Shown: piece by piece, positions 473 to 43,341 of the stretch
How positions within the stretch are numbered: position 1 is the stretch's first letter
Layout of the letters: each line of letters starts with the position of its first letter
From: Kappaphycus alvarezii
Taxonomy: Eukaryota > Rhodophyta > Florideophyceae > Gigartinales > Solieriaceae
Assembly: GCA_002205965.3 (NCBI GenBank)
Contig: NADL03000590.1
Location: 749,001 to 813,000 of the forward strand
DNA length: 64,000 nt
Direction of reading: 5' to 3'
Program-made: the position numbers and the translations under genes
The notes under the pieces: generated by a model
What the model was told of the DNA's origin: nothing
Seen by the model: only the letters and a program-made list of their open reading frames with translations
The model's database searches: none

Positions 473-1414
473 CTACAAACAAACAAACAAACGCTTTATT
501 AGATGTTCACTAAACCGAGCAGGGTCACTCACGCATATGGTGATGCGAGAGACAAAGCATGGCGAGCTACGGCATGGGCCGTCAGCTGGAGAACGAGGAA
601 GGAGAGGGTAGTGACCAGGCGGTCGTATTCGACGGCAGCGGTAGGTAGTGCCGCGTCTTGTGAAGAAGATTGCGGCTATCTTCCCTAGCGCGTGTGGAGC
701 AGAGGAGCCCAGTGCCCCGTGTGTGTCAAACCCGAGGGAGAAGAAGTCGGCGTGTAATGTTGCGCAAAGGTCTGCGTAGCGTGCCCTCTTCTGGGTCTCC
801 ACAGGGGAAGTGGCGCCGCCTGGGGTCTTGCGGGCGTGGGGGATGGCGGAAGCTGCGTACGGACCTGCGACAAAGACATCTATTGCGCAGGGACGAGGAG
901 AGAATTCGTAGTTGTTGATTAAGATGTCCATCCTGCGACGGTCTTGGGGCGAGAGGTGGTTTTCCGCGGGAAAGGTGTACTTGAGGGTGGGGTTGAGCAT
1001 TGCGGATGGGTGCCGATGTAGGGAGAACAGCTTGTTCCGTAGGTGGTTGTGCCTTCGGAGAAATCCTTCCATAGTTGGGCAGTGAGTCGCGTGTCTGCCG
1101 AGCGGGTCAAGGATGGGCAGGGAGCGAGCGTCGGAGAGCAGACATCGAGGGCACCGGTCGAGGCCACTGAAGACCGGGTTGCCGAGGCGCAGTAGGACCA
1201 TGTACGTCCAGATCTCGGGGGAGACTCGAGTAGAGCTACGTGAGTCCGGGATTGTGAGGAAACGGGAGTTGGCAGAGCGGGTTCGGCAGCTAAGATTCCT
1301 CGCGAGGCGTTGGGTTGCAATTTCATGTTGCGGGGTAGAAGTTAGGTATGCTTGGAGGAGTTGCTCGTGAATGGCAGTGGTGATAGTTGGCTGGACGCCT
1401 TGCGGGGGTCCCAC
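473..1414 (-). pseudogene. LINE C-terminal CCHC knuckle and REL-type endonuclease
   Basis: This 313-codon open frame is the tail of the LINE polyprotein. Counting from 1414, C88, C91, H108 and C112 form a CPRC...GRHATHC knuckle. It is followed by an RHN motif near residue 121, RRMDILI (D163) and CAIDVFV (D179), then a Lys/Arg-rich stretch that matches the PD-(D/E)xK core spacing of restriction-like endonuclease domains. Such domains nick target DNA for target-primed reverse transcription. The nominal start is only where the frame opens after a lesion; in the ancestral protein it continued from the RT upstream, across a stop near 1420. Confidence 0.65.
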
Positions 1415-1506
1415 CGTTTAAAGGCGGGCGAGCAGGGGCTCGAGCTGGAGGTGGTCGGGGAGGAGGGACCGGTCGAGGGAGCTGTGCGTTCTGCTGACGG
1501 CAGAGG

Positions 1507-2640
1507 TTAGGAGATGGCGTCCGTCTTCCGGGAGTAGGTCGAGGATGATGTGGTAGGTACTGAGCATGGAGCATAGATGGCAGCGGCATCAATTGAGGAT
1601 GTAAGTGTGAGCCCCAGACCGCCCATTGTGAATGGAATTGTTGCGCAGTGCCAAGAAGCCTGATGAAGGTCGCGATGAATCCTTTGGAAAGCCCCTTGCA
1701 GTTCTTCATCAAACGCATTTGATAAAGAAAGGGTTAGGTGCGGCGGGGTTGTCCGAAGGGTGCACACGAGCTTGCATGCGCTTGCGCAGTGGCGAAGGAG
1801 GTGGAAGGAAGTTTGGGGATCCCGGAGGGCTGGAAGGGCTGCCCAGATGTTCCGGGCGGAGTGGAGGCTGTGTTGGTGGAGAGAAGAGCATCCGCGGTCA
1901 GTTCCGATCGGGGACCCGAGCACTGTAGTGGCCTCGGCAGTGACGATTTTGCAGGGAGGGGGGAGGTTGTCCTTTCCGAACCACCATGCTTCAGTCTTCT
2001 GCAAGTTAATAAACATTCCTAGCTGCCTGCCATCCCTCTCGATTGTGTGCAGTAGATCCGGGGAGTCACGGGAGGGAAGGATGATGTTGCCGTCGTCAGC
2101 ATACCATGCGTGCACCGCGGCTGCGGGGAAAGATGTGTGCAGATGGCGGAGGAAAGGTTGGATGGCGAGTGCGTACAGGTGCATAGCGAGAGAGTCGCCT
2201 TGGTGTGTACCTGTGGCAGACTGCAGGACGTAGGGGCCGAAATGCAAATCCGAGGCCCGCCCGTAGGTTAGGTGAACGAACCTGGCCGCCTGTGGGGGGC
2301 GTAGTCGATGACCGAGCGGAGAAAACAGGAGCGCTCCACGCTGTTGAAGGCGTTGGAGAGGTGGATTTCCAATAGGACGTAGTCTTGATCTTTGAGGGCA
2401 GAAGCCGTGAGGCGAAGGGCGTGTATGACAGCTTCAATGCCGTGTTTAGAGCCAACTGCGTGTTGCAGCGGTCGTAGGTGCGAGAGAAAGACGCCGTAGT
2501 TGCGGAGTCTAGCTGCGAGGAGCCGTGCAACAAAACGTCTGTATAGGATCCCGATTGCTATGGGCCGTAGACGTAGGGTGTCAGGTGAGCTTTTCGGATT
2601 GCGATCAGTGATGCGGCGGAGAGGCAGATTTGGAGTGAGG
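1507..2640 (-). pseudogene. LINE reverse transcriptase domain, catalytic Asp lost
   Basis: From about 2640 downward the translation gives the RT fingers and palm: an LRPIAIG motif at about 2570, a HGIEAVIHALR segment, motif A at about 2347-2370, then THQGDSL and the catalytic YADD at about 2090-2106. In motif A the usual Asp before LSNAFN is His (EIHLSNAFN; CAC in place of GAC/GAT), which should abolish polymerase activity. The frame is broken at the G6 run 2294-2299; one more G would join motif A to the YFxx/YADD half. A second +1 shift lies near 2596. The element is therefore non-functional as written. Confidence 0.75.
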
Positions 2641-3953
2641 TGGGTACAGTGCCGTTTGCTAGCTTGTTGACGAAGTCCGTTAGGGCTGACAGTGCGTTTG
2701 CTTGTGGTTCTGCGCCCGCTGGAGCCGTAGAGAGGACGCGAACGATGGAGAGGCGCATGCCATCTGGTCTGGGTGCCGAGTGCCTATTCAGGGCTTGTAA
2801 CGCTCGAACTGTGGACTCTGCGAAGGGGGTGATGGTGGGGAGTTCGGGCTGAGGGGTTGGCGTGGCTTCGTGGAGGGGCGAGGGGTGAAGGTTTTGGAGG
2901 CTGGGAAGTGTGGCTGGGGAAGGCGTCGCCGGTGGCGTAGTCTGTAGGAGGGCAGCCGTTGCTTTGGAGAGACATCCGTCCCGGACGTATCGTTGACATC
3001 GTTGTATTGGTGACTGGGTCGCCCTCTGCGGCGCAGTGGAGTGTAGCAGTGATGGAAAGGCGTCAGTGCAGCGCGTGTAAAGCTGTTGCCACTGTCCTTG
3101 CCTAGCGAGGTGGATGCGGTTGCGGAGGGTTGAGATGAATGCCAGTGAAGAGCGAGTTCGTGTGTCGTGCCGGCCATTCCTTCGAAGAACTAGTTTTGGC
3201 GTTGCCAGGATGCAAGAGAGTGCGTCAGCTTGGGTGTCTTGTGTGCAGGCTGAGTTGTATCGGGAGTAGAGATCGTGGAATAGGCGATGGAAGTCTGCGC
3301 CGAGGCTGTTGGGTAGGTATTTCAACGTTGGGATCCGCAGTTGATAGATAATGTCGGGTGTCGGGCATGGTTGGGGGGTCGAGGATGTGGGTGATGCACT
3401 CATTGGGAGGTGACCATGTCAGCATCAAGTGCGGGCGGTGTGCGAAGCGGGTCGTGGGGAGGGGGCCGTCGATTTCGAAGTCGTCAAGAACACTTTGAGG
3501 GGGAGGCGGGGGGGCTGGGGGATGTCGGTGGCTGGGGAGGGCACAGGTTCGAGAGTCGGGGGGTCAAGGGCGGGGCCCTTGCATACGGGCGGGTGGGGTC
3601 CCGGTGGGGGCTTGGGTAGGGAGGAGTGAGTCGGCGATTTGGCGAAGGGTAGCGAGGAAGTCGTGGCGCAAGCGCCATTTGCACTCGTCAGAGGAGAGGC
3701 GGTCGATTCCAGCAGTGATGGTTTGACGGAATGCGGCGAGGTCGGCGTCAGATCGGCAGGCTTTGCGGGGATTCTGTATTTCCGTGAACTGCAGCTTGGG
3801 TACAATGAGGTCCTCAGTGGTGGCTTGATGGCGGAACCTACTGTATGCATGCGGGATGAGCGGGACAGCACGCTCGGGTGCGATCAGGAAGAAGATCGAA
3901 GGAGTGGCGGACTGGAGCACAGCAAGAGGTGCACGCAGTCCTCCCTCGCGCAA
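2641..3953 (-). pseudogene. LINE N-terminal and pre-RT region
   Basis: Two or three overlapping minus frames carry LINE-like sequence. One (about 3564-3953) reads FFLIAPERAVPLIPHAYSRF followed by an arginine-rich helical stretch. A second (2558-3403) runs straight into the RT, containing SAPRPDGMRLSIVRVL, the standard SAPGPDG motif that opens LINE RTs. The segment between is Pro/Ser-rich. I cannot identify a gag-like or zinc-finger domain. The frame changes between pieces mean no single intact protein exists here. Confidence 0.5.
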
Positions 3954-4193
3954 GGCGTGACGGATGTGAGATGGGCTTCGAATTCGTCCAGTGGTTTCGG
4001 TAACTTGAACATGGATGATTCGGCACGGTTCAGGTGCACAGAGCCTGCGGGCGGTGGAAGCGATGGTGGAGCGGCGCGACGGGTGAGAAGTGTTGGGTAG
4101 TCGGGATCGTCGGCGGTGTCGGCCGGGGGACGTCTTGAAGGCGGAGCGCCGGGAGGGAAAGCGCGGGGCGCGTAGTGCGGGGCGAGCGGCGAC

Positions 4194-4433
4194 TTAGGCG
4201 TACGAGGGAGTGGCGTTGGCTGTCGCGTCGACGTTCTCCGAGCTCACGGGTGAGTCGGGTGAAGCGGCTTCGGGGAAGAAGGCCGTGGACAGCTTGTGCA
4301 GCAGTGCAAATTCCTGCCGCATCATGGTTTGGATAGCGTGGAAGCCAGGTTCTTTTTTCATGGCTGCTGCGAAACGAGAGACGGCGTTGTCGTCTCCGAG
4401 GTCAAAGGGGCAAATGGCGGTACGGAAGGACAT
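4194..4433 (-). CDS. 79-codon ORF at the 5' end of the LINE, unknown
   Basis: An ATG at 4433 opens a frame beginning MSFRTAICPFDLGDD and ending at a stop at 4194. It is acidic/mixed with no recognised domain. It lies head-to-tail upstream of the LINE coding region on the same strand and could be the start of the element's first ORF or an unrelated host exon. Further upstream the frame stays open but has no convincing protein character. Confidence 0.3.
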   Translation of the reverse strand: MSFRTAICPFDLGDDNAVSRFAAAMKKEPGFHAIQTMMRQEFALLHKLSTAFFPEAASPDSPVSSENVDATANATPSYA

Positions 4434-12229: not shown

Positions 12230-12303
12230 GTCTCCATAGCTCAGCTGGTTAGAGCGCGGGACTGTTAATCTCGAGGCCGTGGGTTCAAGCCCCACTGGGG
12301 ACT
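12230..12303 (+). tRNA. tRNA-Asn (GTT)
   Basis: The cloverleaf folds throughout. Acceptor stem GTCTCCA pairs with TGGGGAC (one G-T wobble). The D arm is TAGCTCAGCTGGTTAGAGC, the anticodon loop CTGTTAA gives GTT, and the T arm is GTGGG-TTCAAGC-CCCAC. There is no intron and no encoded CCA, as expected of a eukaryotic nuclear gene. The A and B boxes lie in the D and T arms for RNA polymerase III. Confidence 0.95.
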
Positions 12304-13019: not shown

Positions 13020-13568
13020 AAAGGGGAAAAATTGGGGTGTTTTAATGATTGAAAAATAGGTTAGCCTACAGTACAGAGTGTTCCGAAGCGCATCAAGTAA
13101 TCTCCGTCCCTGCGCAAGTTAGGCCTCTTCCCTGTTATGTCTAGTTCCACCCTGTTCCCCCAATCTTCTACCAGTCATCCGTTTCAGTATAAACCCCTTT
13201 TTATACCAACCCATTCAAGTAATTGGTACAGGCGGGGGGATAAGGCATGAGCCTCGGTTGCAGGACAAATGATGGAATACCGGGTGTGCGCAGTTTTCGT
13301 TGATTCAGCATGACCGCGGTGTAATGTAGGAAAAAACCGAGACACGTGTCTTGAGAACCCGGAATTAAGAGGGGATGCTTCATGCGGTACGGTACAGTGC
13401 CAGTTTCATTTACTGAACATCTGGTTAGTTCTTAGCCGTGTAGTAAGTCCTGCAGTGTACACGATAGATACTCAATGGAGTAATGTTTCTCTTTGAGTAT
13501 TTTAACTTTATCATAGGGAAAAAGGCGATGTCACTTTAACCGTTTGCCGTCTGGTTTGACGATATTCT
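13020..13568. other. Intergenic, no gene recognised
   Basis: No coding signal. ACAGTACAG-type motif at about 13070. It ends where the 411-bp inverted arm starts. Confidence 0.4.
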
Positions 13569-13979
13569 GCCTTGCCGTGTATGGCTATCCTGTTCAAGGG
13601 CAGCCGAAGCAACCTCGACCATTGCAAGGACCCTTTCAAGCGTCTCAACATTTCAACGGCAGTAAAATGCCGCATTAAACACTTACCTGTCCATCGAGCA
13701 TGGAACAGAGATCGACGCACTCGTGTTTTGTTTTCTGGCATCTCGTTCACGCTCCTTTTGGGCCTTCTCTCTGTAATCCTTCGCACAGCACACAAAAATG
13801 TGCTGATGGTCGACAACACCGGACTGCGAAGCATCGAGAGCGTTTCGATCTTCATGAGCACATTGTTGAGGTTGTGCATCAAAATTTTCCACTTCTTTAA
13901 CGAGTTACACCCTTGCAGTTCAAAGTAATCCTTGAACTCATCAAGCCGGCACTCCTGCGCAAGTTTATTCGCAATGAAA
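13569..13979 (-). repeat. 411-bp inverted repeat arm A'
   Basis: It is the reverse complement of 18572-18982 over its full 411 bp in the parts I compared. The plus strand of its right end supplies the start of the Harbinger-like frame that continues into 13980-14308. The minus strand holds a long frame with SGVVDHQHIF and an REKAQKERERDARK helix, reminiscent of the Myb-like accessory protein of Harbinger elements, ending near a strong GTAAGT donor. The frame identity is unresolved because several frames stay open. Confidence 0.9.
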
Positions 13980-14308
13980 CTCAGGGAGCAACTGTTACTC
14001 CAGAGGTTATGCTATGTATCATGTTACGGCTTCTAGCCGGTGGGAGCTATTTAGAGAGTTGGGAATACGGTGTAACACGAGCGACGGCGTCTTCTATTTT
14101 CGATGAGGTATTGGCTGTTTTAAATTCCTGTTTGCGTCCCCTGCGTTTCCCGATTACTGAAGAAGAGTGCAGACATGAGTCGGATTCGTTTCGAAGGGCC
14201 CATCGGAGCTCGCCTTCTGGAATCATCTGTGCATTGCACGGAATCGCTATTGAGATTCAGCAACCAAAGTTCAGTGACACTCCTGATCCCTGCAAATACT
14301 ACTATTAA
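13913..14308 (+). pseudogene. Harbinger/PIF-like transposase fragment
   Basis: It reads LLAGGSYLESWEYGVTRATA, then LRFPITEEECRHES, then IICALHGIAIEIQQP and DPCKYYY. This is the order of the Harbinger helical region followed by the first catalytic strand, where active proteins have G-A-x-D-G-x-x-I-x-I. Here the Asp is His (ALHGIAI), so the catalytic triad is lost. The frame stops just after the YY motif, where RKG would follow. A possible exon start is the TTGCAG at 13906-13911. The transposase begins inside arm A' and ends in the 366-bp segment unique to the left side; the rest of the gene is replaced by module R. Confidence 0.6.
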
Positions 14309-14444
14309 AAGAAGCGCCGTTAGCATATCCTCAAATTCCGTCGTTTTCAAACCAGCTTTTTGGAGTGCTTTCTCTGCACTCGTCACATTTGCTGGCACAA
14401 GCCATCGAGGGTCGATATTTTCATCATCAAGCACCACAGCACCG

Positions 14445-14819
14445 TCAGTTCCTTGGGTAAGTTGTGATCCAGTCACAACTGCTCTGTTTCGTCATGTGTT
14501 GATGGTAGAGGTCCTCTATTGCCACAGGCTCGCGCCGCAGCTCCAGGAGGCGGACGACCGGACCTGACTTCTTCCTTGTCTGGCGTTTGTCTTGATTCAC
14601 CTTCCGTAAGATCGAGGATAAGGGAAGCCGGTTGGGAAGGTTGTAACAGGTTCCTGTCGGCCTGGAGTCGCTCAGGGTGTCATGGACTCCGCCGATATTT
14701 ACAGAATCTGGTACAGGCTGCATTATGGTAAGAGGCGTAGAGATGTAGGGAAGTTGTGAAAAAGGATCCGTGATGGAATGAGGAAAAGGCGGAGGACCGG
14801 AAGATGGTTCCGTAGTCAC
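14445..14819 (-). CDS. Module R left-end ORF, copy 1 (frame-shifted)
   Basis: It starts at ATG 14819 with MTTEPSSGPPPFPHS, Pro/Ser-rich. Compared with copy 2 it lacks one G at 14675-14677 and changes frame after VNIGGVHDT, ending after LRREPVAIEDLYHQHMTK. Function unknown. Confidence 0.4.
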   Translation of the reverse strand: MTTEPSSGPPPFPHSITDPFSQLPYISTPLTIMQPVPDSVNIGGVHDTLSDSRPTGTCYNLPNRLPLSSILRKVNQDKRQTRKKSGPVVRLLELRREPVAIEDLYHQHMTKQSSCDWITTYPRN

Positions 14820-15443
14820 GGTAAATGCGGCGAGAGGTCTATGGGAGCAAGGCAGTTGATGGTAAAATTAAAATGTGTTTCTCTGCCCTGCTTTCAAGCT
14901 TTTTTTTGTCTTTTTACTCGTTTTCTGTGCGGCGGGGAAACGGAAAGTTTCAACTCCGTACAGGAAATTTGACATTGTGAGAAAACCAAGTGAGAACCTC
15001 TCATTGGCTATTGTTAGTGTCTTTCTTTTTTGTTTTCGCATTTCGACTCGAATTTTTGATCATGGAACGCCCCTCAGATCCCAGTTGGAGGCATTCTAAG
15101 TAAAGAATAAGTTTACCATTACGGATATTAGTCCATTGCAGTACGGCACTATCCTTAAAAGCGCTTTTCTGGACAGAATCTCTTAAAAAATTATCTATCA
15201 GTGATACAATCTACTATAGCAACAGTCTCCGTGCTGATCGCAGGCTGCGAAACTATGACTTCAAAGCGACAAATCTCTTTCTCGTCCTATTCCGCCAACT
15301 TGATCCCTTGCTAATTCCCAAACCTCCATCAGCTATAACATAATAGGGCCATAGGTACGTATGACAATTCCGCAAGTCGAATGAAGCGAATCTGAAATAC
15401 AGGTGATTATAGACAAAGACTCAATTGCGTCATACTTCTTCAT

Positions 15444-16701
15444 TCAGCCTACAAGTAATGTAAGCGTGAACAGGTAAAAATCACTATAGAGTTGTATAAA
15501 GCAAAATCTAATTATGGGAGGAGTGGAAATCGCGTAAAAGTTTTTGAAACAGTTATGTCCTGTCTCTGAATGGCATATCCAGACCTCTTTGTTTAGCTTT
15601 AAGCACTCAGAGCAGATAAATTTGGAATTCTTGCAAGATTTGCAAATTTTGCATCTGCTTTGAAGCACAGCTTTAATCGGAGCTCTATTGGCTCCTTTGC
15701 GCCTTATCGCTGTGTGCACCAGATAGATTCCAGTACTGCAGAGCAATGAGGTGATATAGTACTCTGAAACGCTAATGTCATACCTGCGGAGGCCCGTAAA
15801 ATCAAATGAATTATCGATGAGTCGATCTTCAATTTTTGCATTATGTGACACGCAATTTCTTGCAACCATCACGCCCTTGTATAGTAGCCATGCGTCAACG
15901 ATGCAAGTTGCAATCAAAGATATATTAACCCGTAACGTCCAATTATTGGCCTCGTATTTACTCTCCAGGCAAACATGATCCTGTATGCATATGTTATACA
16001 TGTAAATCTGGGGGTGCGTCTCATAATATGTACTGAAAACCTCCGGAACTGCAATTTTCATTTCTATAAGCACAGATTCATTGCCAGCAAACCTCCAACG
16101 AGATCTTCTCGTAGGCTTTGACGGAAGTGTTGTAACCGGATGTACTGACAAAATAACTTCTGTCTCTATCCATTCATAGCACAGCAATCATAGAGGGGTG
16201 GATATTCTTCCCCTTCATTACAAGAAAAATATGATTTTTGCGCCTAAAAGGTTCCAAACTTAACAAAAATGACGTAGGAAACTGTCTTTTTGCAATCTTT
16301 ACGACCCCCGTAAACCGCAGAAAGTACTCGAAAAGTATATTTGGTGTAACTACAGATGAAAATGCTGAATCTTCACGAACGAGTCGATTTTGAATGAAAC
16401 CGAGGCTCTGTATGGCGAAGAAGTATGGAAGTCCCATGTTGGAAACTCGAATCTTAACGGAGATTGCTGATGTCTGATGTGGACAAGACAATCTCTAAAA
16501 TCAGTACAATGCCACTGACAGCACATTATGAAGTCTTGAATTCAAATTCATTTTTAAGCTTACGGCCCATATCAACATAGTGCGGGAGTCGCTCTGATAT
16601 ATAATTCCCCCCATTCTGTACGATTGAGAAATACTTTCATCCGCGCAAATTCTCTCCAATGGCAAAGAAATGGCCCTCCTATGCCGCTTTATTGCGTCCA
16701 C
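15444..16701 (-). pseudogene. PiggyBac-like (DDE_Tnp_1_7) transposase, copy 1
   Basis: Minus-strand pieces in order: ICADESISQSY (first catalytic Asp region), then GLPYFFAIQSLGFIQ and FLRFTGVVKIAKRQFPTSF, then KNIHPSMIAV. These are followed by a 247-codon frame with TLPSKPTRRSRWRF, PEVFSTYYETHPQIYMYN, NWTLRVNISLIATCIVDAWLL and a final cysteine cluster (CKICKSCKNSKFICSECL...CH...C). This matches the second half of the DDE_Tnp_1_7 family, with its VNxSL...DAWLLY segment and C-terminal zinc knuckle. Frames break near 16.6 kb and at about 16.18 kb, and the normally conserved D/N before the RQD-like segment is altered (YMYNICIQDH), so it is inactive. Confidence 0.7.
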
Positions 16702-18412
16702 GAATCTACTGGCTGGGGACCATCTTCTGCCAGTGCTTTCATTTTCCGTGTAACGACTGAAGGTAATATATGGGAGCAGTGCTTCGAAACTGTTCCTCGA
16801 AATTATTATTCCGAAAATCGGCGACGGAATGTATTTAGGTAATTTTTTTGGATTCCAAAGTCAATTTATGTTCGTGAAATCGAATCTACATAGCAATATG
16901 AGAATTCCAAGGAAAACAGAATTTCTCCGGCTGTTACATGCATACCCCCACCATTGACGACATTCCAGGTTTAAGTTCAGTAATTGCAGAAAGATGGTAC
17001 AGGGGGAAATGCGAAGGAAAAAATAATTCGGGTCCCCTCATACCCCTTATGACCTTGAACGATTGTTGACAAAGATTCCGGCTGTTGACAGGGGTCATTT
17101 GAATTCATCGTTATTGGAAAATTTTTATGATGGTAACAAACTTATCGCATTATCAAGTGAGTTGTCGAGGTCTAAACACCATTGTTGCACGTTTGACTAT
17201 CTAGGAGTGCATTTAGATATGGTGAAAGCTAATAATGTTATTCTTTAAATTTTACAGATAAAATCTAGCCGTTAGAATTATGTACTCATCTGAGTACAAT
17301 TTTCCTTTGGAAACTAGATCAATAACGGAAAGAAGAAATCAAAGTTCTTCACTCTGTTTGTAAACCAACTATTTTATTCGTGAGCTACTGTTACCGCACG
17401 AGCTGTTCTCAAAATGTTTCTCCACATGTTTAATATTTCCATTTTGAGTCCTAAATATGCCTTTGAACGCCTCTAGTCTGAAAGGAGTCCTTAAGGTTCC
17501 AAAGCTTGAAAATTGTTGCAAATTCACTCGCATTGTAACCGAGGATAATCAACACGCAACATAGTGCTCGTCACTACTTTTGGCCATAATTACCGGCACA
17601 AAACACTGCCCATCGCATCAACTGATCAATTGAGCATTATGGGGCAAAATTCGCGACTAGAAAAAGTATCAAAAGCTCCACTTAAGGACCAAATCTTACC
17701 ACTAAGAATGCTGAAAGTGGGGTGCCCCAGATCGAAGTCTCAAACACCGATGTGCTCAAGTTTAAGTCGAATTTATTGCTCTAGATCTTTTATTAAGGTG
17801 CCAAAATTCCGCCTACAACTTAACTGACTTTATACAGGGTGAGAAAGGCACCTTGCAGCCGAAATTAGACGAAGTTAAAAAATGATGATACTATAACTGA
17901 GCGGGCTTTTAGTAAAATAGAGTCGGCCACCTTTTTGACGTTCTTTTTTTAGATGACCGAGAGATCAAAAAATTTCCGAATATACTTCTCATGCGGCTAT
18001 CCTACCAACTGACGGCCCATTCACATGTCATGTAACTTGTATTGCAAGTTTCTAGTCCTATAGTCGGATCCTGCAGTGGACACCGTAGAAAAAAATTGAT
18101 ATAACTTTTCCCTTCCAACTGTGTACAAGTGGAGTCTGTACTCGCCAGAACTTGGAAACTTTGTCGAAACCCACAATTTGGTATGCAATTGATCACATCA
18201 TGCTTTGGGAAATCGAAGCCAATTTATCTGAAAATCACACCTACTAAATATACGCCTGTAACTGTGATGAGATAATTATAATACTTCAATACACTTATAA
18301 ATAAGTCGATTGTGCTTGTCTGTAAAACTTTTGGATATATCTAACATATCGTCCAAGGATAAAACCCCCAAAACTTACTCCCCTTACAAACGTTAATCAC
18401 TTAGTTGCTCCT

Positions 18413-18571
18413 TTAATTATCGAGTCTCTCCGTTTTCGGCACGATTAAATCAGTTCTCCCTGGCTTTTTATTGCCGCGGTCTTCTTTTGCCCAAACAGCC
18501 TTGAACCGCGTTGATTTGCAATCCGTTCTGAAAGAACCCCCTCCCGTGCCCCTACGCTTACCATATTCGTC
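18413..18571 (-). other. Right-end basic frame of module R
   Basis: A Lys/Arg-rich frame (KRRGTGGGSFRTDCKS to KPGRTDLIVPKTERLDN, stop) occupies the right edge on the minus strand in both R copies. Its upstream part differs with the flank, so it is a truncated gene tail or chance. No family recognised. Confidence 0.25.
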
Positions 18572-18982
18572 TTTCATTGCGAATAAACTTGCGCAGGAGT
18601 GCCGGCTTGATGAGTTCAAGGATTACTTTGAACTGCAAGGGTGTAACTCGTTAAAGAAGTGGAAAATTTTGATGCACAACCTCAACAATGTGCTCATGAA
18701 GATCGAAACGCTCTCGATGCTTCGCAGTCCGGTGTTGTCGACCATCAGCACATTTTTGTGTGCTGTGCGAAGGATTACAGAGAGAAGGCCCAAAAGGAGC
18801 GTGAACGAGATGCCAGAAAACAAAACACGAGTGCGTCGATCTCTGTTCCATGCTCGATGGACAGGTAAGTGTTTAATGCGGCATTTTACTGCCGTTGAAA
18901 TGTTGAGACGCTTGAAAGGGTCCTTGCAATGGTCGAGGTTGCTTCGGCTGCCCTTGAACAGGATAGCCATACACGGCAAGGC
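18572..18982 (+). repeat. 411-bp inverted repeat arm A
   Basis: It sits exactly between the two R modules and is inverted relative to 13569-13979. Together the two arms flank the 366-bp transposase fragment plus R copy 1. The plus-strand frame is open across the whole arm (KLAQECRLDEFKDYF ... NSLKKWKILMHNL), and a second frame carries the SGVVDHQHIF/REKAQKERERDARK piece up to GACAG|GTAAGT at about 18865. Confidence 0.9.
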
Positions 18983-19109
18983 TTCAAACCAGCTTTTTGG
19001 AGTGCTTTCTCTGCACTCGTCACATTTGCTGGCACAAGCCATCGAGGGTCGATATTTTCATCATCAAGCACCACAGCACCGTCAGTTCCTTGGGTAAGTT
19101 GTGATCCAG

Positions 19110-19457
19110 TCACAACTGCTCTGTTTCGTCATGTGTTGATGGTAGAGGTCCTCTATTGCCACAGGCTCGCGCCGCAGCTCCAGGAGGCGGACGACCGGAC
19201 CTGACTTCTTCCTTGTCTGGCGTTTGTCTTGATTCACCTTCCGTAAGATCGAGGATAAGGGAAGCCGGTTGGGAAGGTTGTAACAGGTTCCTGTCGGCCT
19301 GGAGTCGCTCAGGGGTGTCATGGACTCCGCCGATATTTACAGAATCTGGTACAGGCTGCATTATGGTAAGAGGCGTAGAGATGTAGGGAAGTTGTGAAAA
19401 AGGATCCGTGATGGAATGAGGAAAAGGCGGAGGACCGGAAGATGGTTCCGTAGTCAC
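19110..19457 (-). CDS. Module R left-end ORF, copy 2 (115 aa)
   Basis: ATG 19457 opens 115 codons beginning MTTEPSSGPPPFPHS and continuing through ASLILDLTEGESRQTPDKEE to TEQL and a stop. The product is hydrophilic, Pro-rich and probably disordered. A following frame (TGSQLTQGTDGAVVLDDENI) also looks coding and would join if one base were added near the stop. I do not recognise the family. It could be the N-terminal part of a transposon accessory protein. Confidence 0.4.
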   Translation of the reverse strand: MTTEPSSGPPPFPHSITDPFSQLPYISTPLTIMQPVPDSVNIGGVHDTPERLQADRNLLQPSQPASLILDLTEGESRQTPDKEEVRSGRPPPGAAARACGNRGPLPSTHDETEQL

Positions 19458-20081
19458 GGTAAATGCGGCGAGAGGTCTATGGGAGCAAGGCAGTTGATGG
19501 TAAAATTAAAATGTGTTTCTCTGCCCTGCTTTCAAGCTTTTTTTTGTCTTTTTACTCGTTTTCTGTGCGGCGGGGAAACGGAAAGTTTCAACTCCGTACA
19601 GGAAATTTGACATTGTGAGAAAACCAAGTGAGAACCTCTCATTGGCTATTGTTAGTGTCTTTCTTTTTTGTTTTCGCATTTCGACTCGAATTTTTGATCA
19701 TGGAACGCCCCTCAGATCCCAGTTGGAGGCATTCTAAGTAAAGAATAAGTTTACCATTACGGATATTAGTCCATTGCAGTACGGCACTATCCTTAAAAGC
19801 GCTTTTCTGGACAGAATCTCTTAAAAAATTATCTATCAGTGATACAATCTACTATAGCAACAGTCTCCGTGCTGATCGCAGGCTGCGAAACTATGACTTC
19901 AAAGCGACAAATCTCTTTCTCGTCCTATTCCGCCAACTTGATCCCTTGCTAATTCCCAAACCTCCATCAGCTATAACATAATAGGGCCATAGGTACGTAT
20001 GACAATTCCGCAAGTCGAATGAAGCGAATCTGAAATACAGGTGATTATAGACAAAGACTCAATTGCGTCATACTTCTTCAT

Positions 20082-21339
20082 TCAGCCTACAAGTAATGTA
20101 AGCGTGAACAGGTAAAAATCACTATAGAGTTGTATAAAGCAAAATCTAATTATGGGAGGAGTGGAAATCGCGTAAAAGTTTTTGAAACAGTTATGTCCTG
20201 TCTCTGAATGGCATATCCAGACCTCTTTGTTTAGCTTTAAGCACTCAGAGCAGATAAATTTGGAATTCTTGCAAGATTTGCAAATTTTGCATCTGCTTTG
20301 AAGCACAGCTTTAATCGGAGCTCTATTGGCTCCTTTGCGCCTTATCGCTGTGTGCACCAGATAGATTCCAGTACTGCAGAGCAATGAGGTGATATAGTAC
20401 TCTGAAACGCTAATGTCATACCTGCGGAGGCCCGTAAAATCAAATGAATTATCGATGAGTCGATCTTCAATTTTTGCATTATGTGACACGCAATTTCTTG
20501 CAACCATCACGCCCTTGTATAGTAGCCATGCGTCAACGATGCAAGTTGCAATCAAAGATATATTAACCCGTAACGTCCAATTATTGGCCTCGTATTTACT
20601 CTCCAGGCAAACATGATCCTGTATGCATATGTTATACATGTAAATCTGGGGGTGCGTCTCATAATATGTACTGAAAACCTCCGGAACTGCAATTTTCATT
20701 TCTATAAGCACAGATTCATTGCCAGCAAACCTCCAACGAGATCTTCTCGTAGGCTTTGACGGAAGTGTTGTAACCGGATGTACTGACAAAATAACTTCTG
20801 TCTCTATCCATTCATAGCACAGCAATCATAGAGGGGTGGATATTCTTCCCCTTCATTACAAGAAAAATATGATTTTTGCGCCTAAAAGGTTCCAAACTTA
20901 ACAAAAATGACGTAGGAAACTGTCTTTTTGCAATCTTTACGACCCCCGTAAACCGCAGAAAGTACTCGAAAAGTATATTTGGTGTAACTACAGATGAAAA
21001 TGCTGAATCTTCACGAACGAGTCGATTTTGAATGAAACCGAGGCTCTGTATGGCGAAGAAGTATGGAAGTCCCATGTTGGAAACTCGAATCTTAACGGAG
21101 ATTGCTGATGTCTGATGTGGACAAGACAATCTCTAAAATCAGTACAATGCCACTGACAGCACATTATGAAGTCTTGAATTCAAATTCATTTTTAAGCTTA
21201 CGGCCCATATCAACATAGTGCGGGAGTCGCTCTGATATATAATTCCCCCCATTCTGTACGATTGAGAAATACTTTCATCCGCGCAAATTCTCTCCAATGG
21301 CAAAGAAATGGCCCTCCTATGCCGCTTTATTGCGTCCAC
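20082..21339 (-). pseudogene. PiggyBac-like (DDE_Tnp_1_7) transposase, copy 2
   Basis: Same pieces, order and breaks as the copy at 15444-16701. The C-terminal 247-codon frame, the 105-codon middle frame and the 66-codon upstream frame translate identically in both copies, so this is a recent duplicate of an already dead gene. Confidence 0.7.
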
Positions 21340-23209
21340 GAATCTACTGGCTGGGGACCATCTTCTGCCAGTGCTTTCATTTTCCGTGTAACGACTGAAG
21401 GTAATATATGGGAGCAGTGCTTCGAAACTGTTCCTCGAAATTATTATTCCGAAAATCGGCGACGGAATGTATTTAGGTAATTTTTTTGGATTCCAAAGTC
21501 AATTTATGTTCGTGAAATCGAATCTACATAGCAATATGAGAATTCCAAGGAAAACAGAATTTCTCCGGCTGTTACATGCATACCCCCACCATTGACGACA
21601 TTCCAGGTTTAAGTTCAGTAATTGCAGAAAGATGGTACAGGGGGAAATGCGAAGGAAAAAATAATTCGGGTCCCCTCATACCCCTTATGACCTTGAACGA
21701 TTGTTGACAAAGATTCCGGCTGTTGACAGGGGTCATTTGAATTCATCGTTATTGGAAAATTTTTATGATGGTAACAAACTTATCGCATTATCAAGTGAGT
21801 TGTCGAGGTCTAAACACCATTGTTGCACGTTTGACTATCTAGGAGTGCATTTAGATATGGTGAAAGCTAATAATGTTATTCTTTAAATTTTACAGATAAA
21901 ATCTAGCCGTTAGAATTATGTACTCATCTGAGTACAATTTTCCTTTGGAAACTAGATCAATAACGGAAAGAAGAAATCAAAGTTCTTCACTCTGTTTGTA
22001 AACCAACTATTTTATTCGTGAGCTACTGTTACCGCACGAGCTGTTCTCAAAATGTTTCTCCACATGTTTAATATTTCCATTTTGAGTCCTAAATATGCCT
22101 TTGAACGCCTCTAGTCTGAAAGGAGTCCTTAAGGTTCCAAAGCTTGAAAATTGTTGCAAATTCACTCGCATTGTAACCGAGGATAATCAACACGCAACAT
22201 AGTGCTCGTCACTACTTTTGGCCATAATTACCGGCACAAAACACTGCCCATCGCATCAACTGATCAATTGAGCATTATGGGGCAAAATTCGCGACTAGAA
22301 AAAGTATCAAAAGCTCCACTTAAGGACCAAATCTTACCACTAAGAATGCTGAAAGTGGGGTGCCCCAGATCGAAGTCTCAAACACCGATGTGCTCAAGTT
22401 TAAGTCGAATTTATTGCTCTAGATCTTTTATTAAGGTGCCAAAATTCCGCCTACAACTTAACTGACTTTATACAGGGTGAGAAAGGCACCTTGCAGCCGA
22501 AATTAGACGAAGTTAAAAAATGATGATACTATAACTGAGCGGGCTTTTAGTAAAATAGAGTCGGCCACCTTTTTGACGTTCTTTTTTTAGATGACCGAGA
22601 GATCAAAAAATTTCCGAATATACTTCTCATGCGGCTATCCTACCAACTGACGGCCCATTCACATGTCATGTAACTTGTATTGCAAGTTTCTAGTCCTATA
22701 GTCGGATCCTGCAGTGGACACCGTAGAAAAAAATTGATATAACTTTTCCCTTCCAACTGTGTACAAGTGGAGTCTGTACTCGCCAGAACTTGGAAACTTT
22801 GTCGAAACCCACAATTTGGTATGCAATTGATCACATCATGCTTTGGGAAATCGAAGCCAATTTATCTGAAAATCACACCTACTAAATATACGCCTGTAAC
22901 TGTGATGAGATAATTATAATACTTCAATACACTTATAAATAAGTCGATTGTGCTTGTCTGTAAAACTTTTGGATATATCTAACATATCGTCCAAGGATAA
23001 AACCCCCAAAACTTACTCCCCTTACAAACGTTAATCACTTAGTTGCTCCTTTAATTATCGAGTCTCTCCGTTTTCGGCACGATTAAATCAGTTCTCCCTG
23101 GCTTTTTATTGCCGCGGTCTTCTTTTGCCCAAACAGCCTTGAACCGCGTTGATTTGCAATCCGTTCTGAAAGAACCCCCTCCCGTGCCCCTACGCTTACC
23201 ATATTCGTC

Positions 23210-32100: not shown

Positions 32101-34676
32101 CTCCGTCAATAGCTTCTAATTTACTATCCAGGTTCAAGAACTCAACAAACTTCCTTATTTTAACGCTGAATACACAAAAAATATGTATTTGATGGCATTT
32201 TCGGTCATACCAAACGAAATTAAGTTGATAACGAGCTTAAAAGTCCAGCAGAGAATGATTGATTAAACCAGCGCTCACCAGAATCAAAATGTGTATGTCT
32301 GTTCATTTCAATTGCTCGTTTTGGCCAGATTGGTTGAAAAGTTGTTTCAAATATTGCAGGAAAGCAAAGTCTCTCCTGTGCGCCGCAATAAATATAACTA
32401 TCTCAAAGTATATGCCATCTTTAAGATATTTGCGATTTATTTTATTATTAATGGCTGAAAAGATATCTTGAAAGCCGCTAAACCTTGAATAAACGCTAAA
32501 AAATATTTCGCGATACGAAACCCTAAAAACATGAAAAGTATGGATCTTCCTATACTAAGGTATAAACTTTTTTGCTATATTCCTTTTTCTGATCGTTACC
32601 CATCCTCAATGATACGCTTACCTCATATTCTATGCGGTATTGGGTTCAATTAAGAGACCTGACCTTCGCACGATCCCTGCGACAAAAATTGACATTTTTT
32701 AAAAACGACAAGAAGGTAATAAAGAGGACATATTGGACTTAATTTGGGTTTTCTTTTGTAAGAAGGATAATTCCGGCCAAAATCTCTTTTCAGTTGAAAA
32801 TCATCGACATGCTGAGAGTCACTTCATCACCCTAACGCAAAAGTGCATATACATTACCCTGTTTTCTGTAAATAGTATGACCCTATTTGCAGTAACATAC
32901 TTCACTGTCACAAATTGACCGTTGAAAGGTCATAAATTACATCATGCTGGCAATCATTACCCCCTGATCCGTCCAACGAACTACTCGACACAAATCGAGA
33001 GATCTTATATATTGGGAGGAGAAGGCGAAGAGGGGTGGTATATTATCAGAGGCACCACGCGACTCACTGATAGTACGAAAACTTGAATTTTTTTGCAGTA
33101 ATCACCCAGGTACATCCTCTTATCCATGAAGCGCTTTGTAACTGGTGCCATTACTGAGGATAACGGAAGAAACAGCGAGCTTTGATTATAAAAATTCGTT
33201 TCAATGGAGTGTATTCAAATGTAGTGTGAACTAATCGGAATGAATTGCCTAGTTGCGAATCAATGAAAAATTTACCCTGCTATACGATTATGAGCAATGT
33301 GAGTGTGATTTTTAGGGAATCTTGGAAATAGTTTATAGATTCTGCTACAGAGAATTCGGCACCTCAGACGGAAAAGTAGGATTACCTTTTCCTTAAATGT
33401 TCAAGTTGTTAATATGGAAGTAATTTGACCCGATGTTGAGGACTTAAAAGTTATTTTCAAACTTCTTCGATATTTGAACGAAACTGTCCAAAAAAAACCA
33501 TATATATATCAACACGGTTCAAAGAGATAGCACACTACAGTCCTAGATTTATATTACGGATGAAGCTCCAGCAAATTCCCAAAAATATCGCAGTACCCGA
33601 CGTAGGCAGAAAACATGCAAACGGACAGCATGCATTTTTTGTACTTTACGGAGAATTTATATCTACTACATTGTATCCTTCAACTAGGCTAATCAAACTT
33701 TTTGAATGGCCTGAAAATAGATTTCTACGGAGCTCGCAGTAGCATTATTGTACTAAATTTTAGTCTTTGGATACTAGCCAGGCAGAAAGACTGCTACCAA
33801 AGTGTACTCTGTTTCTCACTACTTTTTACGGTATCAGAAAAGATATTCCGTACAGTAATATCACATTAATCCAAATATGGACTCTAATAGATGTGTAGAT
33901 CATAAAAAACCAGATTCGTTCTTTGTTTCCTTGCTATATTTGTAGAGTGGTACTTGTAATACTGCATTTCTGTTTAATTTTTCGCTTCCATACAAAAAAA
34001 TTGTTCGATAGCGATTTTGGTTGAAGAAACGCAGATTAAGTCAAAGAAATATCATTTCCCCTTCAGATACAGTGCTTGGGGTGAACGAAAGTATCCCTAG
34101 AAATTTCATACTGTGCTATCCTGATCCCGACTGGGTTGATTGAAAGAAAATCTCTAAAAAGTTTTTCTTGGTGCATTTTTTAATAATAAAGAATAATGTT
34201 TCTAAGCCAAAAAAAGTAATATATGATCTATGAAAGTGAGGCGGTTTACTATTTCTATGGAGTTTAAAACTCGCTTGTCGTTTCAATTGTACAATGACTG
34301 GCCGAATATTTATATTTGCACGAGAGAGGTAACGACAGGAGATATTTAACACAGAGGTCATATTCAAACAGAAAACGGTTGCGAAGATCCTTTTTGCTGG
34401 TGAAAAATATATTTGTAATCATTCTCGCCATTTTCACCGCTCCTATGCGATTTTACTTCTCGAAATGGTAATTAAAATGTCTTGAATAATTGAGTTATGG
34501 GTGCAAAACAGAAGAAAAATCTTTGAACTCCCTGTTTAAATCACTTCATTTATTGAAACATGGTGTATCTTTAGAAGCAGGTATGTAAAGTTTGAATTAA
34601 AATAAGTATTAGCTTCATTTGGACTTAAATTAATGACTAGTCAACATCAACTGCAACTGAGTACATTTCTCGTGGA
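29166..34676. other. AT-rich desert, no gene recognised
   Basis: About 5.5 kb of AT-rich DNA with only short frames and no recognisable domain. It is probably very old transposon debris. I see nothing else in it. Confidence 0.45.
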
Positions 34677-34889
34677 AATAAATTACTACAAGTTACAGCA
34701 GCAATATCTTTAAGCTTCAATAAAGTTGGATCGCGTAACCAAAGGACCTTCCGAAAATCCTTATTTCTTCAAATAAATCTCATAATAAATTACTACAAGT
34801 TAAAGCATAAATATTGTTAAGCTTCAATAAATTTGGATCGCGTAACCAAAGGACCTTCTGAAAATCCTTATTTCTTCGAATAAATCTCA
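34677..34889. repeat. Tandem duplication, period 107 bp, two copies
   Basis: AATAAATTACTACAAGTTA to about AAATAAATCTC is repeated from 34784 with a few substitutions and one small rearrangement in the middle. Both copies contain AATAAA-like and GGATCGCGTAACC segments. Confidence 0.9.
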
Positions 34890-35039
34890 AAATTTATGGG
34901 AGTAAAGTAATACATATGCTCATGCAATTTTGAAACATGTCCCATTAAAGATATTATCGCTCCAGTATTGAAGAAAGGCCTCAATACCATAATGTAAAGG
35001 GCTATCCAAATCCATCTCGTATACGATTTCGCTGGGAAA

Positions 35040-39419: not shown

Positions 39420-41684
39420 CTACATATGCTCACCCCTGCCTCCCTTGTCGAGCGCCATGGTGCGCATAGACAGCAGAGAAATATTCCCCCGCTCCGCACT
39501 CCTCGGGGTTACCGGCGACGCAGACCCAACCATCTTTTTCATCAACATCCGGTGCTTCTTTCCAAACAAAGAAGAGGGTCCGCAATCCTCCACCCCAATC
39601 ACATCGCTATCATCAACATCCACCAAACCCAGCGCCTCCAACCCAAGGTCCAAATCCAACGCCTGACCTCCAACGCTCCCCTTTCCTTTTTCGTCCGACC
39701 CAAACCCACCCCGACCCATCAACCTGCGAGATAACTTTCGAACAGGCGCCAATCGATTCCCGTTCTCCCCCCCAACGCCGCTTTCAACTTGTGCCTCAAA
39801 CTCCCCTTTCGTGGGTACAAGCCTGCACCAAACCCATCATCTTCAGGCATTTGTATCGGCGCTTTCCACTTGCGTCCCGAGTATCGCGGCTTCGCATCCT
39901 GGTCATACGACTGTCGCAACTCTCCACTATTGCCCCTTGTCGCTTCTCCCCGGCTTCCTTCTCCCTTTGTCGCTTTCAACGTTCCTGCCGCTTTACCACC
40001 CTTGCTACCCGCTTTGCCTTTCCACGTCAAACTGCTTGGCCCCGCCCATCCCGTCCCCCACGACTTGACGCTTCCCTCTTCTTCTATGTCACTCTCTTCA
40101 CAAGCCAGTTCAAAGTCATCACACCCCTTGACCCTGGCGGACCCTTCATTCTGCATATCCGAAATAGAATCCTCCATCCATGTCCCCGCACCTCCGCGTT
40201 TCCCAGTTGTCACCCCCATGGCCAACGCATGTTTCCCCACAGGATCCTTGTACAAAATGCTGACAAGTCGTCGAACCGCTCTCACCGCAATAACTCCCAC
40301 TATCCACCTTTGCTTCGCCTCCGCCCGTTCTTCCACCCCCCTTCCAGATCCTCACTCTCCGGCATAGTCAACTGCCCGCGCATCGTCACAAGCGATTCCT
40401 GCTCGATAATATACTGCGAGATGCGTCCATGCGCGGCAATCTTACTCGACATATCGGGACGTTGCTTCTCCAACCATGGGTGCACTAGACAGCCCAACGG
40501 GGTCAATCGCTTCTCGGCGTTATAGCACAACAGAGCTCGCACAAAGGACCGAGATTCTGCGCTGTACTTGGTCCACTCCTTCTCGCTAAACGTGAGATGT
40601 AGCCCACGGCGCAACTGCGACACCATATCCGTGCCTTCGTCAAACGGTAGACGTCTGGCTATTGCATTGTAGCAGAGCATTCCCAACGCCCACATGTCAA
40701 CTTTTTCGGTATATGGCTGGCGGTTTGCAATCTCGGGTGCAATAAACTCGGGGGTGCCAATGACCGTCGACATGAGCATTTGGCTGCTACCGCATATGCT
40801 CGATAGGCCAAAGTCGGAGATTTTGACATGAAACGGGGGCTTTTTGCTTGTGCAAAGCACGTTTTCCGGCTTGATATCGCGATGTGCAATGTGTTGATCA
40901 TGTAGATAGAGAATACCGTCTATAATCTCACGCATAAACTGGGCGACGTCCTGCTCCTTGAAACACACACCATCTTCGATAGCATCATAAAGCATTCCAC
41001 CTTCCATATACTCCATGACAATATGAATCTTGGATCGCGTCTCATAAACATCATACGTCTTGACAATATTCGGGTGCGTCACACGCTTAATGATAGCAAC
41101 CTCGCGGCCAAACAATTTTGCATTATCCTCCGTCTTGGTCATCGTCTTGATTGCACACAAGGTGCCGCTCTTTCGGCACCTGCCAATACGCACCTGTGCA
41201 AAACCGCCCTCTCCAATCAACGGACCCACCTCATAGTCGTTTTCAAAATTGCGATTAGCGGCATAGCGAAGGGCAGCGACCCAACTTTTGCAGTCGTCCT
41301 CAGTCTTTGCATACAAAATAAGCGTATTTTCCTCAAACTCATACGCCACAGACAGCGTCTTCTCATCCTCACCACCCTTCAACACGAGAACAAAATGCGT
41401 ACGGCCCAGTTGCAACACCTCGGCTCCCTGGACATTGACATCCCAAGCAGGTTCAGAGGCCTTTAAAACCGAAAACAGTTTCCAAATGTCAGTACACGAC
41501 GGGTGAATCACGCACGACAAACCCAAAAAACCAAAACCACACCCAACTGTCCCATGGTGAAAAGCAAACCACCTACCTCGTTCAAATGCTTTGAAAAAAT
41601 AGCGCCATGTAGCTTGTAAAAGCGCTTGCGACGAAGGCCCTTGGACTTTCCGTTCTTCCCGGCGCGGCGAAGAAAGCCGTGCAT
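39420..41684 (-). CDS. PH-domain serine/threonine protein kinase (CAMK-like)
   Basis: Exon 1 is 41577-41684 (36 codons, MHGFLRRAGKNGKSKGLRRK onward); the intron is 41461-41576 (116 bp, GTAGGT...TTAAAG, phase 0); exon 2 continues from 41460. The spliced N-terminus is a PH domain (residues about 3-104, ending in CKSWVAALR). The kinase domain follows at about 111-366 with GEGGFAQV, catalytic CAIK (K141), RE (E156), HRDIKPEN (D231), DFG (D252) and GTPEFIAPE. All catalytic residues are present, so it should phosphorylate Ser/Thr. PH plus kinase suggests recruitment to phosphoinositides. The tail (about 330 residues, disordered, Lys/Gly/Ser-rich) breaks at two C runs on the plus strand, 40336-40341 and 39767-39773; one extra base at each restores a continuous frame to the stop at 39420. 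As written, the protein stops at 40300. Confidence 0.85.
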
Positions 41685-41850
41685 TGTTTCTCAAGAAACG
41701 CGTGCACAAGACGCAACACAACGAACAAACGAGGCAGCAGGAGAATCGGATGAGGGTTGACAAGGAGGCCGGCAGATTGCACAAAGCGTCGTTGACGAAA
41801 TGAAGAAAGTGAAGTGTGGGAATGCGTGGAGACAGGGTGGGGGGACGGGA

Positions 41851-41856
41851 TTTATA
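41851..41856 (-). promoter_or_regulatory. TATA box of the kinase gene
   Basis: TATAAA on the minus strand, about 167 bp before the ATG at 41684. The leader downstream and the region upstream are strongly C-rich on the sense strand. Confidence 0.5.
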
Positions 41857-41859
41857 AGG

Positions 41860-43341
41860 GGGGTGGAGGGAAGACTCGCGGGCCGCATGTGGGGGTTGGG
41901 ATTGCAGGGGTGGGTCACATTTCTGGGGAATGGGGAGTGTTGGGGATGGAGGGAGTGGGGGATGCTAGTTGGCAAGGTTGGGTGTGACAGGAAACAGGGC
42001 GGTTGTAGGTGCGGTGATGGGGTGGGGTGGGTAGATGAGGACGGGAGTGCGGTGTACACGTTGCGGGGAGGACGGGGGGGGGTGTTTCAGGGGGGGGGGA
42101 TTTTGGGAGTGTGGTTACGTATTGGGAAATATTTCGTGTCGTTCTTGGGGGATGGGGGGTGGATTGTGGGTGTGGGTGTGGTTGTGATTTGTTTTTTGTG
42201 AGAGTTGGCGGTTGGTGGATGTGGAGGATGGGCAGGCTGGGTACCCTTGAACCCTTGAAGGGTAGCCTTGAAGGGTATTGCGCAGAATGGTTTTGTCGAA
42301 TGTATACATCGTGTAGTAGGAAAGTGTTGGGATATTTGAAAGGCGACTCTTGTTTGCCTGCATCAGTTGCATGGCAAGACGAAAGCAACGTCAGATACCG
42401 AAATGGAACACGTGTGGGCGGCAGGATGCAAGGAAGAGGGGAGTGGACAAAGGGGTGGGGGATGGAGAAATTGGGCGACGGTGGCTTGGAATGAGAGCCC
42501 GGATTGGTTGGATTAACGGTAGGCGGCCTTATGTCGACGCGTGTGCCCGTGTCTCGTTTTCTGTTGCGAATGTCGCCGACAACTGTACTGTACTGTACAC
42601 TTTTGTACAGTGGCAAACCTATTTTTCAATCATTACAACAACCTCAATTTTTCCCCCTTTCCCTGTACAGGTTCAAAGAATTGAACCATTCTCACAAGTA
42701 GCCGTCAGAACCGCTAGAGCTACCGGTCCACGGACTTAGTTTCAGGCACGGTCCGAGGAAGGCCTTCCATTCACAAACATTAAAAATCAAACAGGATTTG
42801 TACCAGAGCAACCATCTCAACAGTCCTTACCCGAAAATTTTCCATAGCCTTGCACGTCTTACAGAAACAGTAATTTCGAGAAATCTGCATCTGTGGTTAC
42901 TATGTATGCAACGTGCGTGAGCGCGCAGTAAAATGAAATCGGAGAGAAATTCTCAAAATGCGCACTTCACTGCCCAACAAGGAGGAAAAACAGGGTAATT
43001 CATGCCATTCTCTCGCTCCATTCACTTCATGCACACCCACAAGAGTGAGCTGACGCATTTCAAGAATGGGCCAGAATTCTGGAACCTGTGCGCACACGTG
43101 GCATGGTAATCCCCGGCTGATTTCAATCACCATATTTGATTTTGGCCTCCGTGCACAATTGTAAGTAATACTGTACTCGTAAAGGGTATCTTGGCATTTT
43201 CCGTGATAGCCATAGCGGTTCCCAAGCCAGGATGAAGCACAAGCATTTGAGGCCAACTACGGTACCTGCAACGCCATTCCAGCCGTCCATTGCGCTGTTG
43301 TACCGACTATTGCAAAGCGTTTCCTGACCCGCTCAGAAAAC
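41860..43341. other. Promoter-side and intergenic region
   Basis: The plus strand is G-rich to about 42.2 kb (the C-rich sense leader of the kinase gene). No gene is recognised from 42.2 to 43.3 kb. Confidence 0.4.
42582..42610. repeat. ACTGTAC tandem/palindromic motif
   Basis: ACTGTACTGTACTGTACAC followed by TTTTGTACAGT: three direct ACTGT units and an inverted partner. Member of the dispersed gene-island family. Confidence 0.6.

Follow-up and report, generated by a model that had tools for sequence, protein, structure and literature searches.

Complex local duplications in which one of the extra copies is inverted have been described from several systems. The closest appears to be the DUP-NML-INV/DUP rearrangement at the human PLP1 locus, in which a single-copy interval lies between two duplicated segments, one extra copy is inverted, and one of the two joints connects the far ends of the segments and the other the near ends (as described in PMC6902434). 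According to its authors, three structures satisfy these two joints, and their own two cases of this type could be any of the three; the intervals given for three cases, two of them DUP-NML-INV/DUP, range from 3084 to 7863 kb (PMC6902434). A described class of copy-and-paste rearrangements in cancer genomes likewise shows gains together with inverted joins; it includes the PCAWG local 2-jumps, which are somatic tumour events with two local joints that combine inverted rearrangements with gains and can be phased to one derivative chromosome (PMC7025897). On a much smaller scale, small inverted triplications with a DUP/IN/DUP layout, reported with median lengths of 148/160/148 bp and a 6-bp microhomology, have been explained by errors of replication that involve template switching (PMC13334657). 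Finally, local inverted joins also arise as chimeras during phi29 amplification (MDA) of DNA (PMC1855051).

A comparable arrangement was found in Kappaphycus alvarezii, in a 64-kb stretch of DNA that was analysed as a whole (GCA_002205965.3, contig NADL03000590.1, 749,001-813,000, forward strand) and is called the window below; all positions are those of the window. The segment order, which can be read directly from the sequence together with two new joints, is x-A'-T-R-A(inverted)-R-y, where x and y are the left and right flanks. The features are as follows.

13569..13979, + strand: A', the 411-bp copy taken as original from the adjacency argument given below; exact reverse complement of 18572-18982, right end joined to T
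13980..14345, + strand: T, a 366-bp single-copy, copy-neutral interval between the duplicated segments, with no second copy in the window
14346..18571, + strand: R1, the putative original 4226-bp segment (self-BLAST, sequence script, adjacency argument)
18572..18982, - strand: A, the putative derived, inverted copy of A' (self-BLAST, sequence script, adjacency argument)
18983..23209, + strand: R2, the second R copy, 4227 bp (self-BLAST, sequence script)
18571..18572, no strand: J1, a blunt, strand-switching joint of the far end of R to the far end of A (sequence script, joint comparison)
18982..18983, no strand: J2, a blunt, strand-switching joint of the near end of A to the near end of R (sequence script, joint comparison)
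13901..14305, + strand: a 135-residue stop-to-stop frame across A'|T, by eye only a Harbinger-type transposase start; no Pfam family, fold prediction unusable
15447..16860, - strand: a frame-broken, decayed relic in R, possibly of a piggyBac-like transposase, seen by eye and with a Pfam match below the cut-off

When the 64-kb window was compared with itself by BLAST (pieces longer than 80 bp, E up to 1e-10), 13569-13979 aligned with 18982-18572 in inverted orientation at 411 of 411 positions, and a direct sequence script confirmed that A' is the exact reverse complement of A. The same search aligned 14346-18571 with 18983-23209 at 99.976% identity with one gap, the sole difference between R1 and R2 being one extra G in a run of G residues (GGGG versus GGGGG, with the break at position 14678 of R1). 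No second copy of T (13980-14345) was found in the window at these thresholds, so that A and R are each present twice and T once. These analyses reproduced, to the base, the six boundaries and the A'-T-R-A-R order of the initial annotation, as well as its net single-base difference between the R copies. Chance falls far short of explaining perfect repeats 411 bp and 4.2 kb long. There are no substitutions in the 4637 duplicated positions (4226 in R and 411 in A), which by the rule of three (our own calculation) limits the substitution divergence between the copies to at most about 0.065%; the event is therefore recent, or else the copies are an artefact. The only other self-BLAST repeat in the window (over 80 bp, E up to 1e-10) was a 110-bp tandem pair at 34677/34784, which corresponds to a 107-bp unit in two tandem copies (34676-34893) within AT-rich DNA.

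The probable ancestral order was derived from the adjacencies, by listing all walks from x to y that use only adjacencies present in the assembled sequence. Exactly one of these walks, A+ T+ R+, uses each segment once, which implies that A'|T and T|R predate the event, J1 and J2 being the sole new joints. On this argument x-A-T-R-y is the parsimonious ancestor, two joints would account for the entire structure, and T would be single-copy DNA that lay between A and R in the ancestor rather than an inserted fragment. The description of A' and A as terminal inverted repeats is accordingly misleading, as the adjacency argument makes A a derived inverted copy of A'. The 135-residue frame at 13901-14305 crosses A'|T undisturbed, in agreement with A'|T being original; this is weak evidence, because a frame of 226 residues (18417-19097) likewise spans both J1 and J2. 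Three orders use the same joints with A and R twice and T once, namely A+ T+ R+ A- R+ (as assembled), A+ R- T- A- R+ and A+ R- A+ T+ R+, and a choice among them can be made only by reads longer than R. There is just a slim chance that two or three of these orders coexist, either through a 4.6-kb circle of R plus inverted A recombining at R or through flipping of T-R between the 411-bp arms.

At J1, position 18571 is joined to position 13979 in inverted orientation, and at J2, position 13569 in inverted orientation is joined to position 14346. No bases have been added at either joint (sequence script), and the microhomology is 0 bp at both, the sources sharing no base on either side of the break. 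For a wider comparison, words common to the 30 bases around each break were compared with those in 4000 random pairs of stretches of this kind. For J1, no common word of at least 5 bases was found within 30 bases of the break, as was also the case in about 11% of the random pairs. For J2, a 9-bp word, TCAAACCAG, is common to the donor, where it starts 9 nt past the break, and the acceptor, where it starts 1 nt past it. Words of at least 9 bases were shared by 1.05% of the random pairs, and two joints were tested, so that this offset word is only suggestive. The word belongs to an inverted 9-bp pair, CTGGTTTGA / TCAAACCAG, with one member just outside A' (13551-13559) and the other at the start of R (14347-14355); the only further site in the window is the R2 copy at 18984. 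This inverted pair may be a trace of the formation of J2.

The locus shares with the PLP1 DUP-NML-INV/DUP rearrangements the presence of two duplicated segments (A and R, two copies each) flanking a single-copy interval (T, one copy), with one extra copy inverted, and it shares their joints, as J1 connects the distal ends and J2 the proximal ends. The assembled order corresponds to that one of the described structures which has two direct copies of the distal segment, with the proximal segment inverted between them (PMC6902434). The segments of 0.4 and 4.2 kb and the 366-bp interval are much smaller than in the PLP1 cases, and the joints are blunt, without microhomology and without a repeat-mediated joint. 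The resemblance to the PCAWG local 2-jumps lies in the two local joints, in the inverted rearrangement with gains and in the phasing to one derivative chromosome, although those events are somatic. The DUP/IN/DUP layout of the small inverted triplications is also found here; in those the segment is triplicated, whereas A originates outside R and is merely duplicated.

The locus is most likely the outcome of a single recent, local event, either a template switch or templated end joining. We consider it on balance probable that a recent local structural rearrangement by template switching, rather than transposition, acted on an ancestor x-A-T-R-y. A strand growing in replication or break repair would have copied through R and left its template at R|y. 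Synthesis would have resumed on the opposite strand, at the inner end of A, and run backwards for 411 bp before a second switch returned it to the original strand where R begins; from there R would have been copied once more and on into y. This would leave R duplicated in tandem, with an inverted copy of A templated between the two copies, and the source of this inserted copy lies only 366 bp from R. The copying mechanism is proposed by analogy with known rearrangements of the same form. A template-switch product had been among the options named in the initial annotation, and it is the best-supported one with respect to the segment order and the DUP-NML-INV/DUP joint pattern, but not with respect to the joints themselves: microhomology at the joints, the usual although not obligatory hallmark of MMBIR/FoSTeS, amounts to 0 bp at both. 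Blunt joints fit end joining better than replicative template switching. Among the PLP1 join-points, only 19 of 159 have at most 1 bp of microhomology (PMC6902434), which likewise counts against template switching.

End joining could yield the observed product from two broken sister chromatids, with breaks at R|y and T|R and capture of a 411-bp reverse copy of A; this would amount to unequal end joining that produces a tandem duplication and takes up a templated filler. The two blunt joints agree with this, blunt ends making up 35% of the natural copy-number breakpoints in one Drosophila set (PMC4056370). However, two breaks and a third source for the insert are required, and 411 bp is long for a filler; of 50 insertions in the Drosophila data only 2 are tandem duplications, and the extra bases mostly lack a match in the reference, unlike the fully templated A (PMC4056370). 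We hold this variant to be rather improbable, while noting that template switching and end joining are inseparable by sequence alone. An origin of R-A-R from a circle or by unequal exchange, as initially suggested, is formally possible, as R-A-R equals one pass, opened at R, through a circle of R plus inverted A (4227 + 411 = 4638 bp), present or past, which might have integrated through recombination at R or been merged into the contig by the assembler. Formation of the circle would itself require J1 and J2, so that steps are added and nothing more is explained; furthermore, the Pfam scan, which covered selected ORFs and frames of A, T and R, gave no match above the cut-off, and no replication gene was seen there. 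We regard the circle as very doubtful. The earlier suggestion of an unrecognised composite mobile unit, either A'-T-R-A bounded by 411-bp terminal inverted repeats or R as a module, has in its favour the perfect inverted arms and, weakly, the possible transposase relic in R. This relic is frame-broken, and one local copying event explains the arms, of which no further copy was found in the window by self-BLAST. For 11 candidate units the flanks and the outer 30 bases were compared. None of them showed an exact target-site duplication of at least 3 bp, nor one of 4 to 10 bp when shifts of up to 2 either side were allowed; exact 2-bp flank matches occurred for three (R1, R1-A and A'). Except for A'-T-R-A, no unit tested, including R, T-R and A, had terminal repeats of its own in the outer 30 bases, and the only terminal inverted repeat found was that formed by A' and A, for which the copying event accounts. 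The composite unit was rejected on the absence of target-site duplications, and with T as apparently ancestral single-copy DNA it now seems extremely improbable; the notion that R or A is a transposon in its own right was likewise rejected, as the unit comparison gave them neither target-site duplications of at least 3 bp nor terminal repeats in the outer 30 bases.

The main residual doubt concerns the presence of the structure in the organism itself, as the assembly may be wrong. An amplification chimera or a wrong path through the assembly graph could have given rise to both the inverted A and the second R, in which case the organism would carry x-A-T-R-y or either of the other two orders with the same joints. 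The copies are near identical and differ only in how long one G-run is, an error typical of consensus sequences, and two orders besides the assembled one (A+ R- T- A- R+ and A+ R- A+ T+ R+) are compatible with the same six joints. Inverted joins also dominate among phi29 amplification chimeras (406 of 475; PMC1855051). On the other hand, 93.5% of the inverted chimeras of less than 10 kb reported there have complementarity at the joint, counted from at least 2 bp (PMC1855051), while neither J1 nor J2 has any (0 bp at both); two such joints would be expected in about 0.4% of cases if independent (our own calculation). This complementarity is usual but not obligatory for short-range inverted joints. 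The blunt joints are evidence against an amplification chimera, and they do not count against an ordinary assembly error. A contig with strand-switching joints would imply reads crossing J1 and J2, unless a gap was filled. Taken together, an artefact is unlikely, though far from negligible.

If real, the rearrangement described here would be a clean, base-resolved and recent example of the complex local duplications known from work on human disease and cancer. Taken alone, it is a structural variant of an ordinary kind, and no function of it is apparent. Given more events in the same genome, such blunt joints could be of use in telling end joining and template switching apart.

The content of the segments looks like decayed, transposon-rich DNA. 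The frame across A' and T resembles, by eye, the start of a Harbinger-type transposase, a label which we take to be plausible but not established: Pfam gave no family for the 131-residue ORF of A'-T at E up to 1, nor for the 135-residue frame, a short fragment, at E up to 10. A single-sequence fold prediction of 13913-14308 had a mean pLDDT of 48.5, which is too poor to use, and another single-sequence prediction had a mean of 45.3. The minus-strand relic in R is possibly piggyBac-like, again by eye and not as an established label; it includes a DDE_Tnp_1_7 match at 16504-16860 (E 0.071, 12.8 bits versus a cut-off of 22.4), and no Pfam family was matched by the 247-residue ORF of R or by 16177-16494. 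Two other matches below the cut-off were taken as chance, i.e. Transglut_core3 (E 0.015) in a minus-strand frame of 166 residues over A', and CggR_N (E 0.14) at 14175-14567. An exact 26-mer from R had no match in viral contigs, and protein-guided searches of viral contigs with two ORFs gave 7 and 1 pattern-matching stretches, none of which was confirmed. No match to a plasmid collection was obtained with megablast, and searches of solved structures with two ORFs gave matches at chance level (best E 1.2 and 0.54).

Several other features could be identified in the window. Minus-strand frames at 473-4200 resemble a decayed non-LTR-type retroelement, with an RVT_1 match (E 1.2e-7) at 1507-2433; the adjoining frames were assigned by eye, and 473-1417 matches no Pfam family. 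The only Rfam family found at gathering scores was tRNA, and a tRNA-Asn (GTT) gene was identified on the plus strand at 12230-12303 by both Rfam and ARAGORN, about 1.3 kb left of the rearrangement. Finally, an uninterrupted stop-to-stop frame of 554 residues on the minus strand (40300-41964) contains a protein kinase domain (E 6e-69), while its PH-domain match is weak and below the cut-off (E 0.0037); the frame looks like a eukaryotic gene.
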